From Pseudonocardia autotrophica (GTDB lineage Bacteria > Actinomycetota > Actinomycetes > Mycobacteriales > Pseudonocardiaceae), in contig NZ_JNYD01000009.1 in the NCBI RefSeq assembly GCF_000717175.1, positions 124,001 to 188,000 of the forward strand: 64,000 bases of DNA. The letters run 5' to 3'. A program made the position numbers and the translations under genes. The notes below the pieces were generated by a model. It was given only the letters and a program-made list of their open reading frames with translations. It made no database searches and had not been told where the DNA came from. This document shows, piece after piece, positions 5,825 through 17,245 of this stretch. Each line of letters starts with the position of its first letter. Position 1 is the first letter of the stretch.

Positions 5825-8128
5825 TCAGCCGGCCGTGACCGTGAGCCGGCCGAGGGTGGCGGCCCGGTCGGGGTGGTCGGCGGGGACGACCGCGGAGGAC
5901 AGCGCCGTCCAGCAGGACGGGCAGCTGTACTGCCGGAACACGACGGGCGCGTCGACGTAGTCGGTCGCCTGCGCGATGATCTGCGGCCCGGCGTCGGTCG
6001 GCGGCCCGTCGTAGACCGCGAGGGCGAGCGGGCCCTCCCCGGTGTCCCCGAGGATCTCGGCGCAGTGCGCGCAGGCGACCGCGGAGCCGACCTCGACGAG
6101 GTTGTCGTCGACCCGCTTGACCGACGACAGGTCCGCCTTGCCACGGGTCTCGCCCGCCACCCGGGACCGGTCGCGCCGGACGCCGCGCAGCCGCTCCCGC
6201 TCGGCCGCCGTCGCCGCCGGGTCGACCCTGCCGTCCGCGAGGACCACGCCGTACACGCCGGTCGCCGCGCCGGCGGTGATCTTCTGCTCGCGCAGGTCCC
6301 GGACGACGGCCTCGGGGTCGCGGGTCAGCGGGTCGCCGTAGCCCCCGCCGCCCTGCCAGGTCATCGCGAAGACCTCGCCGGGCGCCAGGTAGCTCGACGC
6401 GTAGTTCTGCCCGGGCTCCAGCGTGTCGCCGACCTCCTCCAGCGAGGACGGCATCCGGCCGGAGCCGAGCAGTTCCGCCACCCTGCTCTGCCGCGCGACG
6501 ACGTCGAGCCCGCTGTTGCCGGGGTGCCCGCCGGACAGCCCGGCGTTCTGCGCCACCGCCTTGCCCGCGCTCGCGAGCACGAGGCCCATCGGGAGGCTGG
6601 TGCCGTGCGGGGTGATCGCGATCGAGGCGCCGAGCCCGCCGCGGTGCCGCCCGGGCCCGCCGGAGTCCGGCACCTCGCGCCGCCACAGCGTGAGGACGGG
6701 GTAGAGGAACTCGGTCATCTCGACGTCCGGCACCCGGCCCATCGGGATGCAGAACAGGCCGCCGGTGTCGACGCCGTCGGCGTGCGGGCGGGCGCCGTAC
6801 CCGCCGGCCATCGGCTCCATCATGATCGACAGGAACGGGGCGGGCTGCTCGCCGCGCTCGTCCAGCCCGGCGATGACGGCGGTGTCCCACGTGCCGCAGC
6901 AGGTGGCCTGGACGTTCTTGCCCAGCTCCAGGTCCCGGTCGAGCATCTGGGACAGGCACTCGGCGATCAGGCTGCCGGTCAGCCAGGCCGGCCCGATCGG
7001 CCCGCGCCCGACGGCGGCGGGGAAGGTCGCGTTGTTGAGCGTGCCCTCCTCGGTGACCAGGTCGAAGCAGCGCATCAGCCCGCCGGCGGACCACGGGATG
7101 TCGTTGGCCAGGATCGGCAGCAGCGCCAGCATGACGCCGCCGCGCATGCCGGCGTAGGTGCAGTTGATCACGCCGGCCTGCGGGTCCGTGCCCGTGAAGT
7201 CGAAGGTCAGCCGGTCGCCGGTCTTCGTGGTGGTCACCGTGATCTTGTGCAGGTCCCGGTCGCCCTCGTGGGACTGGTCCTGGTACCCGGTGGCGGTCCA
7301 CGAGCCGTCCGGCAACGCGGAGAGCTTGTCCCGCAGGCGGGTCTCGGCGTCGGACATCATCCGCTTCATCACGGCCTTGACCGTGTCCGGCCCGTACTGC
7401 GCGATCAGGGCGTGCAGCCGCTCGGCGCCGACGTTGTTGGCGCCGATCTTGGCCCGCAGGTCCAGCCCGACCAGCATCGGGACGCGGGAGCGGCGCACCC
7501 AGAGGTCGGCGACGTCGCGCTGCAGCCGGCCCTCGCGCACGACCTTGACCGGCGGGGTGGGCAGGGACTCGGAGAAGACGTCCTGCGCCGCCGGGGAGAA
7601 CGAGCCGAGGCCGACGCCGCCGAGGTCGGGCTGGTGGGCGATGGCGCTGGTCCAGGCGAAGAGCTTCCCGTCGTGGAAGACGGGCTGGTAGACGATCACG
7701 TCGTTCTGGTGCAGCCCGCCGCCGACCCACGGGTCGTTGCACAGGAACATGTCGCCGGCCTCGATGCCGGGGTTGTCGGCGCGGTTGCGCAGCGTCCAGT
7801 AGATCGCCAGGTCCACGGCGCCGACGAGCATCGTGTTGTAGAGGCCGACCTGGACCTCCTGGCCCAGCTCGTCCGAGATGGCGAAGTCGAAGTCGTTGGC
7901 GTCGGTGACGATCGGCGAGCCGGACATGCGCTTGAGCGCCTCACCCATCTCGTCGGTCACCGACCAGAGCCGGTGCCGGATGACCTCGTAGGTGAGCGGG
8001 TCGAGGGCGTCGATCTGCTCCTGGGTCACGCTGTGGACCGGGAGCGACGACGGCAGCGAGCGGGCCAGCTCGTCGGGGTCGACGGGGCGGCTGGAGAAGG
8101 CCTCCGAGCCGGGGATCGGCATGGTCAT
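5825..8128 (-). CDS. HyuB-type subunit (acetone/acetophenone carboxylase or hydantoinase B family) with C-terminal Cys-pair domain
   Basis: A 767-residue cytoplasmic protein of the HyuB/AcxA family; partners of this family use ATP to activate a substrate for carboxylation or ring opening. Residues about 35-600 contain typical segments: LTYEVIRHRLWSVTDEMGEA, LCNDPWVGGGLHQNDV, FDFTGTDPQ and SGGHPGNSG. The last 130 residues add a domain with CAHC and CPSC pairs, resembling the zinc-binding gamma subunit of acetone carboxylase fused in cis. The ATG at 8128 follows the HyuA stop after one base with AGGAG upstream. It is the second gene of an operon with HyuA. A carboxylase is favoured over a plain hydantoinase because of the zinc-like domain, but the substrate is not evident. 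Confidence 0.85.
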   Translation of the reverse strand: MTMPIPGSEAFSSRPVDPDELARSLPSSLPVHSVTQEQIDALDPLTYEVIRHRLWSVTDEMGEALKRMSGSPIVTDANDFDFAISDELGQEVQVGLYNTMLVGAVDLAIYWTLRNRADNPGIEAGDMFLCNDPWVGGGLHQNDVIVYQPVFHDGKLFAWTSAIAHQPDLGGVGLGSFSPAAQDVFSESLPTPPVKVVREGRLQRDVADLWVRRSRVPMLVGLDLRAKIGANNVGAERLHALIAQYGPDTVKAVMKRMMSDAETRLRDKLSALPDGSWTATGYQDQSHEGDRDLHKITVTTTKTGDRLTFDFTGTDPQAGVINCTYAGMRGGVMLALLPILANDIPWSAGGLMRCFDLVTEEGTLNNATFPAAVGRGPIGPAWLTGSLIAECLSQMLDRDLELGKNVQATCCGTWDTAVIAGLDERGEQPAPFLSIMMEPMAGGYGARPHADGVDTGGLFCIPMGRVPDVEMTEFLYPVLTLWRREVPDSGGPGRHRGGLGASIAITPHGTSLPMGLVLASAGKAVAQNAGLSGGHPGNSGLDVVARQSRVAELLGSGRMPSSLEEVGDTLEPGQNYASSYLAPGEVFAMTWQGGGGYGDPLTRDPEAVVRDLREQKITAGAATGVYGVVLADGRVDPAATAAERERLRGVRRDRSRVAGETRGKADLSSVKRVDDNLVEVGSAVACAHCAEILGDTGEGPLALAVYDGPPTDAGPQIIAQATDYVDAPVVFRQYSCPSCWTALSSAVVPADHPDRAATLGRLTVTAG

Positions 8129-8129
8129 C

Positions 8130-15747: not shown

Positions 15748-15992
15748 CCACGCTCTACGTCCTGGACGTCCCGGAGAACACGGCCGTCGCCAAGGTCGCC
15801 GCCGAGGACCCCGCGGTGGTCGTCGACAAGATCGGCCCGTACTTCGAGATCCGGGCGGACGGGCCGATCGTCATCGACCGCCGCGCGACGGGGTGCCGGC
15901 ACGCGGTCTGGTACTCCTGCGTCGGCGGGGTGGCCCGGGACGGGCGGATCACCCAGCACGACAAGGACGCGCTGCGCGTGGAGCCGGTGTGA
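15744..15992 (+). CDS. Unknown 82-residue protein in the aromatic cluster
   Basis: I do not recognise this family. The protein has no membrane span or signal, contains two Cys eight residues apart (GCRHAVWYSCVGG), and ends in a charged KDALRVEPV. Start and stop both overlap the neighbouring genes by 4 bp, so it is made together with the VOC enzyme and the hydrolase. A small accessory subunit of one of these is the simplest idea, but that is inference only. Confidence 0.7.
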   Translation: MTTLYVLDVPENTAVAKVAAEDPAVVVDKIGPYFEIRADGPIVIDRRATGCRHAVWYSCVGGVARDGRITQHDKDALRVEPV

Positions 15993-17245
15993 ACACAGCC
16001 GCTTCGACCGGGGGCCTGGGCGCGGGCCGCTACCTGGCCGCGGGGCAGCGGCCGGATTCCACGGTCACCACCGTGCACGAGCTGACCACCGCCGACGGGG
16101 CGACCGTGCGCGGTGTGCTGGCCACGGTGCCCGGGGCCCGGACGGTGGTCTGCCTGATGCACCCGCGCCAGGACGTCACGCACCACCCGCTGGTCCCTCT
16201 GCTGCTGCAGGCCGGTGCGGCCGTGTGGACCCAGCACACGCGCTCGGTGAACAACGACCTCACGCTGGTCCACGAGCAGGCACTGCTCGACGTCGCCGCG
16301 GGCCAGGTCTTCCTGCGCGAGCAGGGCTTCGAGTCGGTGGTGGTGCTGGGGCACTCCGGCGGCGGCACGCTCTACGCCTTCTACCTCGAGCAGGCCGCGC
16401 TCGCGCCCGGCGACCGGATCGTCACCACCCCCGGCGGCCGGCCGACGAAGCTCGCCGACGCGCCCATGCCGGTGGCCGACGGCGCGGTCTTCCTGGCTCC
16501 GCACCCGGGGCAGGGGGCGCTGCTGCTGGGCTGCATCGACCCGTCCGTCGCCGACGAGTCCGACCCGCTCTCGGTCGTCCCGGAGCTCGATCCCTTCTCG
16601 ACGGCCAACGGGTTCGCCGAGCCGCCGACGAGCGCGACGTACTCCACGGAGTTCCTGCAGCGGTACCGGGCGGCGCAGCGCGACCGCGTCGCCCGGATCG
16701 ACGCCGTGGCGCGGGAGCACCTCGCTCGCGCGGCCGAGGCGCGCGCCGCCGTCAAGGCGACCGGGAGCGCGGCGGACCGCCGTCGCTCGCTGGCCCCGCG
16801 GATCCTCACGGTGTTCCGCACGGACGCGGACCCCCGCACCGTCGACCTCTCCCTCGACCCGAGCGAGCGGCCCTACGGCTCGCTGTTCGGCAGGCGCCCC
16901 GACCTGATCAACTACGGCCAGGTCGGCTTCGGGCGGCTCACCACCCCGGAGGCCTGGCTCTCGACCTGGTCCGGGCTGAGCACCAACGCCGACTTCGTCC
17001 GCTGCGCCCCCGGCGTCGCCGTGCCGACACTGTTCGTGGAGCTCACCGGCGACCAGGCGGCCTTCCCCTCCGACACCCGCCGCATGATCGCCGCCCTCGG
17101 GTCGGACGACCTCACGGTCGCCTCCGTGCGCGGCCTGCACTTCGGCGGCGCGATCGCCGAGGGCGAGCCCACGGGCAACGAGCTCGCCGCCACCGAGATC
17201 GAGGGCTGGCTCGACAAGCGCTTCGCCCTCGCCCCACCCGGCTGA
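15989..17245 (+). CDS. Alpha/beta hydrolase of the aromatic cluster
   Basis: A 418-residue serine hydrolase. VVVLGHSGGGTLYAFYL holds the nucleophile elbow (GHSGGG), ELTGDQAAFP may supply the acid and GLHFGG the catalytic His. A long insert (about residues 150-300) between nucleophile and acid probably forms a cap domain. It may hydrolyse the ring-cleavage product or a CoA/aryl ester made by the upstream enzymes. The GTG start at 15989 overlaps the preceding stop as GTGA. It ends 5 bp before the convergent Lrp gene. Confidence 0.8.
   Translation: MNTAASTGGLGAGRYLAAGQRPDSTVTTVHELTTADGATVRGVLATVPGARTVVCLMHPRQDVTHHPLVPLLLQAGAAVWTQHTRSVNNDLTLVHEQALLDVAAGQVFLREQGFESVVVLGHSGGGTLYAFYLEQAALAPGDRIVTTPGGRPTKLADAPMPVADGAVFLAPHPGQGALLLGCIDPSVADESDPLSVVPELDPFSTANGFAEPPTSATYSTEFLQRYRAAQRDRVARIDAVAREHLARAAEARAAVKATGSAADRRRSLAPRILTVFRTDADPRTVDLSLDPSERPYGSLFGRRPDLINYGQVGFGRLTTPEAWLSTWSGLSTNADFVRCAPGVAVPTLFVELTGDQAAFPSDTRRMIAALGSDDLTVASVRGLHFGGAIAEGEPTGNELAATEIEGWLDKRFALAPPG

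Follow-up and report, generated by a model that had tools for sequence, protein, structure and literature searches.

A conserved, operator-linked gene set in Pseudonocardia autotrophica that may encode an aryl-CoA route with a two-component ring-cleavage dioxygenase

We analyzed a nine-gene locus in a 64,000-nucleotide stretch of the Pseudonocardia autotrophica genome (NCBI RefSeq assembly GCF_000717175.1, contig NZ_JNYD01000009.1, positions 124,001 to 188,000 of the forward strand; hereafter the window, whose numbering is used throughout). The gene set is real, conserved and co-regulated, and most likely encodes one pathway. On balance, we favor a catabolic route under TetR control, whose substrate would be a 2-hydroxyaryl acid related to salicylate and probably not salicylate itself, and in which an EntE-like ligase, an FAD monooxygenase, a ring-cleavage enzyme of the VOC fold with its small partner p82, an alpha/beta hydrolase and a maleate isomerase would act in this order, with a HyuAB-type enzyme supplying the acid. 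More tentatively, the locus may represent a widespread undescribed aerobic pathway with a two-component ring-cleaving dioxygenase, composed of a mononuclear metal enzyme of the VOC fold and an MmoB/DmpM-type effector. In the bacteria carrying hyuAB, this pathway would be fed by an ATP-dependent alpha-beta-gamma carboxylase turning a phenol-like or ketone substrate into the 2-hydroxyaryl acid.

Results

Layout of the locus

All nine genes were found where an earlier reading of the DNA, made from the sequence only, had placed them, and their codon-position GC was that of actinobacteria. They form three apparent transcription units: hyuAB leftward, monooxygenase-ligase-isomerase-TetR rightward, and VOC-p82-hydrolase rightward. 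The 4-bp overlaps that the sequence-only reading had described as prevalent occur at five junctions (11865-11868, 13505-13508, 14260-14263, 15744-15747 and 15989-15992). The features are as follows.

5825..8128, minus strand: HyuB-type beta subunit with a C-terminal gamma-like zinc domain, 767 residues (PF02538, 451 bits; metal-site spacing as in CapB)
5828..6208, minus strand: gamma-like C-terminal domain of HyuB (HHalign against PF08882-type proteins; two CxxC pairs)
8130..10226, minus strand: HyuA-type ATP-binding alpha subunit, 698 residues (PF01968, PF05378, PF19278; DVGGT motifs)
10265..10278, no strand: operator copy 1, hyuA side (14-bp word)
10322..10335, no strand: operator copy 2, monooxygenase side (14-bp word)
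10372..11868, plus strand: aryl-CoA-type FAD monooxygenase, 498 residues (salicylyl-CoA 5-hydroxylase model, below cut-off; VioD as best solved relative)
11464..11865, plus strand: C-terminal extension of the monooxygenase, possibly a vestige of an old yellow enzyme (OYE) reductase barrel (HHalign probability 30%)
11865..13508, plus strand: EntE-like acyl-AMP/CoA ligase, 547 residues (5wm2, 346 bits; HN...C pocket)
13505..14263, plus strand: maleate cis-trans isomerase, 252 residues (2xec, 340 bits)
14260..14970, plus strand: TetR regulator (PF00440, PF17932)
15047..15060, no strand: operator copy 3, before the VOC gene (14-bp word)
15115..15747, plus strand: predicted VOC-fold ring-cleavage dioxygenase, 210 residues (PF00903; 9u42; metal triad)
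15744..15992, plus strand: p82, MmoB/DmpM-like partner of the VOC enzyme, 82 residues (VOC fusion in proteobacteria; HHalign 82%)
15989..17245, plus strand: alpha/beta hydrolase-like protein, proposed C-C hydrolase, 418 residues (GHSGG at residue 121; sub-threshold Pfam match, E 0.082)

An alternative start of HyuB is a GTG at 8137. Pfam and NCBIfam agreed with the families named above; all NCBIfam matches listed for the nine-gene set lay below their cut-offs, and p82 and the alpha/beta hydrolase had no NCBIfam match.

Conservation of the gene set in two phyla

A close homolog of the monooxygenase was present in 47 of the 297 genomes of the family. From 54 monooxygenase matches, 40 were fetched with their flanks, leaving out the own genome, a same-species copy and 12 more. 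These 40 loci come from 36 genomes, four of which (G106, G192, G244 and G265) give two each, and the G106 pair (L047 and L083) resemble copies. Gene presence was scored at 40% identity and 60% coverage with the monooxygenase as the anchor; some loci stop at contig ends, so that gene absences are upper bounds. All nine genes were found in 21 of the 40 loci, the seven genes other than hyuAB in 27, and hyuA together with hyuB in 29. The individual counts were 40 for the monooxygenase (by anchoring), 39 for the ligase, 38 for the TetR regulator, 34 each for the VOC enzyme and p82, and 33 each for the isomerase and the hydrolase. Gene content was kept across the loci while order and strand varied. 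All or most of the set occurs in Pseudonocardia and Amycolatopsis relatives and in Tsukamurella, and part of it in Streptomyces and Rhodococcus; outside the family, the VOC gene is seldom seen, with 6 of the 394 genomes of the class carrying it at E 1e-30, own genome included.

When public genomes were scanned with the VOC-p82 alignment, 374 loci emerged. We read the 80 best of them, all proteobacterial by title. Among these 80, VOC-p82 is universal by construction, being the anchor, which does not apply to the other genes; the ligase was found in 80, the hydrolase in 79, the monooxygenase in 78, a thioesterase in 58, the isomerase in 49, and hyuA and hyuB in 4 each. The carriers of the gene set include Cupriavidus, Achromobacter, Burkholderia-group bacteria, Pseudomonas, Variovorax and Pusillimonas. 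Three of the four proteobacterial hyuAB pairs, those of L146 (Paraburkholderia oxyphila), L150 and L166, are convincing at 53-73% identity; the fourth (L142), at 27-30%, is not. Carried by 29 of the 40 actinobacterial and 4 of the 80 proteobacterial loci, hyuAB is an add-on and not the core. The neighborhood on whose conservation the sequence-only reading had staked its proposal is thus kept across two phyla, with hyuAB as an optional module, which alters that reading.

A major facilitator superfamily (MFS) transporter of one family was found nearby in 7 of the 11 actinobacterial loci without hyuAB, versus 4 of the 29 with hyuAB. The best model for three tested members was aromatic acid/H+ symport, at 248-261 bits and below the cut-off of 418.55.

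Operators shared by the transcription units

The related operator words noticed in the sequence-only reading resolved into one 14-bp palindromic word, GTMRAMYWKTYRAC. Its only matches in the 64 kb are at 10265, at 10322 (on both strands) and at 15047. All three sites fall in the two promoter regions. In 100 shuffles, the mean was 0.05 matches, and none reached four or more. The pattern was written after the window sites had been viewed, and the independent test is its placement in relatives. There, in the 40 actinobacterial loci, each of the 38 sites lay upstream of the monooxygenase or the VOC gene at a distance of no more than 260 bp, and none lay elsewhere, which upholds the promoter-side placement. 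A site precedes the monooxygenase in 13 loci and the VOC gene in 18; 23 of the 40 loci carry a site and 17 carry none. In the 1.56 Mb of proteobacterial loci, the word occurred 6 times, versus 0 for the reversed control; in L169, L174 and L185, and likewise in a separate Variovorax locus (L097), it lay directly upstream of the hydrolase gene. The TetR protein is likely to be the regulator that reads these putative operators. In the 8.02-Mb assembly, the word matches three further places; a match at C3:786347, inside an open reading frame before a monooxygenase paralog, was taken as chance.

The VOC enzyme and its partner p82

The metal triad of the VOC enzyme, His13, His105 and Glu153, was kept in 49 of 49 aligned sequences as a 2-His-1-Glu site. 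Its best solved sequence relative was 9u42 (E 5.4e-7), a VOC-type protein whose identity as a homogentisate 1,2-dioxygenase of Acinetobacter is taken from its title. In Cupriavidus metallidurans CH34 and Variovorax paradoxus, VOC and p82 form a single reading frame, and 118 of the 120 listed homologs of the fused protein span at least 92% of its length. The predicted structure of P0242, which is 98% identical to the CH34 fused protein, had a pLDDT of 92.8 and a pTM of 0.89. Foldseek placed 9u42 at rank 1 for the fused relative; a second structural aligner ranked epimerases and catechol-type dioxygenases first. The VOC enzyme probably works together with p82.

MmoB and DmpM are effector proteins of diiron monooxygenases, and to our knowledge effectors of this type have been associated only with those enzymes. 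When 162 p82 sequences were compared with 29 MmoB/DmpM proteins in HHalign, the match reached 82% over 81 columns, versus 0.06-1.08% for seven controls, and the similarity extended over the full p82 length. In a search of 40 genomes with PF02406, at least 5 of the 34 sub-threshold rows, including the best, were p82 genes, namely those of the own genome, the same species and three others. The p82 protein thus appears to resemble MmoB/DmpM effectors, a similarity that is no proof of fold or effector role, and it differs from them in that its partner is a VOC-fold enzyme, fused to it in proteobacteria. It is somewhat unlikely that p82 is unrelated to MmoB/DmpM and merely a structural domain of the dioxygenase, as could be argued from its score against the MmoB_DmpM Pfam family (16.6 bits, under the gathering score of 25) and from the scant coverage of the p82 portion in fold searches; the profile comparison and the PF02406 rows speak against it.

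On a Mycobacterium avium plasmid (L095), a PDR-type reductase and a P450 precede the genes for VOC and p82; the monooxygenase homolog of this locus lies in a 659-residue frame annotated as a heme-binding protein and is possibly a fusion.

Ligase, monooxygenase and a paralogous cluster in the same genome

The best solved relative of the ligase is the salicylate-AMP ligase 5wm2. At the pocket residues that matter in such ligases, it has HN...C as in salicylate ligases, where 2,3-dihydroxybenzoate (DHB) ligases have Ser in place of Cys. It differs from the salicylate ligases by an Ala for Phe/Tyr after HN and by a Phe in the second pocket segment, where EGL[LI] is not kept. Against the model of the DHB-AMP ligases EntE/DhbE (TIGR02275), it scored 371.5 bits, below the cut-off of 723.55. 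The monooxygenase matched only the first half of the model for the bifunctional salicylyl-CoA 5-hydroxylase/oxidoreductase (NF006101; 315 bits, cut-off 1078). Its C-terminus aligned to OYE in HHalign with six controls at 1.4% or less, which is suggestive only of a barrel vestige; the C-terminal end of the paralog described next is similar by eye.

A second cluster of the same genome (L014; G000:C3:86000-105000) encodes a homologous ligase and monooxygenase together with a cupin, an FAA hydrolase and a PaaX regulator. For the cupin, gentisate 1,2-dioxygenase is the best model, with 255 bits against a cut-off of 442; the cluster also has a mycothiol-dependent protein of the maleylpyruvate-isomerase family that exceeds its cut-off. 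This is the layout expected for the classical gentisate route. The pocket of the L014 ligase is of the salicylate type (HNFPLAC/EGLLNFTR), and we infer a salicylate role for this enzyme.

The window thus has the same opening enzymes as L014, whereas the ending is replaced by VOC-p82, the alpha/beta hydrolase and the maleate isomerase. Nothing else argues as strongly as this contrast for a substrate different from salicylate and for an order in which the ring would be cleaved, the product hydrolyzed and maleate then isomerized. In both routes, that of the window locus and the salicylyl-CoA/gentisate one represented by L014, there would be an EntE-like ligase, an aryl-CoA FAD monooxygenase, a 2,5-dihydroxy intermediate and fumarate at the end. 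The window differs in having VOC and p82 for the cupin dioxygenase, an added hyuAB and another ligase pocket, and in that it would hydrolyze first and isomerize maleate second, in contrast to maleylpyruvate isomerase followed by FAA hydrolase. We therefore regard the frame as a variant of the salicylyl-CoA/gentisate kind, the new elements being the ring-cleavage pairing and the optional carboxylase module.

The shared opening enzymes and the salicylate-type Cys of the pocket would also suit a second pathway for salicylate that runs via gentisate and maleylpyruvate and ends with a maleylpyruvate hydrolase. We consider this unlikely, given that the pocket departs from those of L014 and the solved salicylate ligases after HN and in the second segment, and that a classical-looking cluster already exists in the genome.

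On a Streptomyces chartreusis plasmid (L091), an isomerase-VOC-p82-hydrolase set lies a few kb from a cupin/FAA-hydrolase/mycothiol-isomerase set, with transposase genes between them.

Isomerase, hydrolase and neighboring thioester enzymes

The isomerase resembles the maleate cis-trans isomerase 2xec/2xed with no evident differences, and Cys73 and Cys186, at the active-site positions, were kept in 43 of 43 aligned sequences. Single-sequence structure prediction of the hydrolase was useless (pLDDT 37), and neither its fold nor its C-C hydrolase role gains support from the model.

Thiolase genes lay near the cluster in 10 of the 80 proteobacterial loci, 8 of which lack hyuAB; two such genes were tested, and both exceeded the thiolase-family cut-off. 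L146 and L150 carry thiolase genes (acetyl-CoA C-acyltransferase-type) as well as hyuAB, and L093 has CoA-transferase and thiolase genes. Acetyl-CoA C-acyltransferase-type genes were also seen near the Pseudomonas loci L140-L148, and TodX/FadL-type outer membrane proteins near the cluster in L140 and L146.

HyuAB and its gamma-like domain

HyuA carries the DxGGT phosphate motifs (DVGGTFTD at residue 8, DVGGT at 298). In HyuB, three residues of the predicted His-Asp-His metal site, H140, D143 and H165, have the same spacing as CapB residues 99, 102 and 124. The zinc-like domain proposed in the sequence-only reading is borne out by the HyuB tail. All 11 aligned homologs have two CxxC pairs there, separated by some 50 residues (residues 686 and 736 in the window). 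In HHalign, the tail matched acetone-carboxylase gamma-type (PF08882-type) proteins at 95% (E 4.5e-8) with both CxxC pairs in register, the alignments being small. No gamma protein was matched when the tail was searched directly against Pfam and the PDB, Pfam listing two weak zinc-finger families, and PF08882 had no match in the own genome. The tail is retained in the HyuB of Paraburkholderia L146, and in Eoetvoesiella (L166) the gamma domain is a separate small open reading frame overlapping the end of hyuB.

Gamma subunits are described for acetone carboxylase (Acx) and acetophenone carboxylase (Apc), with four metal-binding cysteines (Cys22/25/75/78 in Apc), and as absent from hydantoinase (Hyd) complexes; the authors of that description could not tell carboxylase and lactamase functions of HyuAB enzymes apart by consensus sequence (PMC5214803, as far as the available text goes). 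Because of the gamma-type tail, a carboxylase is favored over a lactamase for HyuAB. The resemblance to Acx/Apc comprises an ATP-binding alpha subunit, a beta subunit with a metal site and a four-cysteine gamma domain. In the window, by contrast, gamma is fused to beta, genes for alpha-prime and epsilon subunits are absent from the locus, and the scores against the Apc NCBIfam models (190-401 bits) are far below the cut-offs of 1250-1500.

HyuAB could instead be a lactamase or hydantoinase that opens a stable cyclic amide, for example one of the oxindole type, the pathway handling the resulting amino acid. Its best NCBIfam scores, to the caprolactamase alpha/beta pair (CapA 500 and CapB 226 bits), exceed those to the acetophenone-carboxylase models, and a single HyuA with a single HyuB is the arrangement of Hyd enzymes. 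These scores, however, are half the cut-off of 1000 or less; the gamma-type domain, described as absent from Hyd enzymes, is likewise not mentioned for CapAB in the available source text; and no amidase family occurs among the nine genes, although a 2-amino ring nitrogen would require one. A lactamase is accordingly an improbable reading, and the carboxylase remains the favored one.

In a genome of the same genus (G688), the loci L106, L107 and L108 encode HyuB-like proteins with gamma-like C-terminal tails; the L106 protein scores above the cut-off of PF08882, and that of L108 seems to be orthologous to the HyuB of the window.

Discussion

The computations establish the gene set with its operators and its conservation, the fusion of VOC and p82, the gamma similarity, the type of the ligase pocket and the isomerase cysteines. 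From these data, we infer the reactions and activities, their order, the substrate and the direction of HyuAB as follows. The EntE-like ligase would turn a 2-hydroxyaryl acid into its aryl-CoA, which the FAD monooxygenase would hydroxylate para to the 2-hydroxyl group, at the 5-position. In most of the proteobacterial loci read, a thioesterase would then remove the thioester; in P. autotrophica, another enzyme would do so. Cleavage of the 2,5-dihydroxy ring by VOC and p82, between C1 and C2, would yield a maleyl-keto acid, and the alpha/beta hydrolase would split this into maleate and a small keto acid; with nothing but a carboxyl group as the side chain, the small keto acid would be pyruvate. 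The maleate isomerase would finally convert maleate to fumarate. HyuAB with its gamma-like tail would be an ATP-dependent ketone or enol carboxylase, probably supplying the acid. Among the titles and abstract openings listed from one open-licence library, we found none that matches this gene set.

This proposal is supported by the two-phylum conservation, the contrast with L014, the ligase pocket, the thioesterase neighbors, the 9u42 relationship and VOC triad, the match to 2xec, the MFS transporter and the gamma domain. The co-regulated pathway, the aryl-CoA chemistry and maleate as a probable product, all put forward in the sequence-only reading, are retained here; the lactam opening that it had allowed is disfavored by the gamma-type tail.

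Several observations weigh against the proposal. We know of no activity for any member of the gene set. The superposition with 9u42 was poor (TM 0.24/0.38, root-mean-square deviation 18.6 A), identity to the fused relative in Foldseek was 24%, and 9u42 was not among the 50 matches listed by the second structural aligner. The isomerase lies within about 10 kb in just 49 of the 80 proteobacterial loci, and the window locus has no thioesterase. Against the siderophore-type DHB model, the L014 ligase scores higher (598 bits) than the window ligase does (371.5 bits). In HyuA, a regular expression did not find the exact GxxPGP adenosine motif, QAVPGP being read instead, and by score HyuA and HyuB are nearest to CapA and CapB. 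A direct role of gamma in carboxylation is considered unlikely by the authors of PMC5214803, as far as the available text goes. The thiolase and CoA-transferase neighbors could point to another side product, such as acetoacetate.

Placing HyuAB downstream, where hydrolysis of the ring-fission product would give maleate and a methyl ketone to be carboxylated by HyuAB, activated and thiolyzed, agrees with the thiolase genes of L146 and L150 and with the methyl ketone substrates of characterized gamma-bearing enzymes, as far as the available source text goes, but is very unlikely, since 8 of the 10 thiolase loci lack hyuAB and an alkyl or aryl group would have to occupy the acid position of the ring, in conflict with CoA activation of that acid.

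The locus represents a recurrent soil function in two distant phyla that has no name. If the proposed pairing is true, a mononuclear ring-cleaving enzyme with an MmoB-like effector would widen what such effectors do. The occurrence of the gamma domain in fused and split form offers a way to approach the question of whether a HyuAB enzyme is a carboxylase or a lactamase, and the classical-looking L014 cluster provides an internal control in the same genome.

Elsewhere in the window, a linalool dehydratase/isomerase family protein (2101-3594, minus strand; PF18566, 371 bits) adjoins an SCO1/SenC protein (1607-2104, minus strand). The linalool dehydratase, SCO1 and hexapeptide neighbors were rejected as parts of the pathway, occurring in L046 alone of the 40 fetched stretches. 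A frame at 16225-19110 encodes a VOC protein with two glyoxalase matches and is followed by a MaoC-type hydratase (19222-20073). A Guanidine-III riboswitch (492-557, minus strand; 54.3 bits) lies ahead of a small multidrug resistance protein (163-600, minus strand), an arrangement that we take to be that of guanidine exporters.

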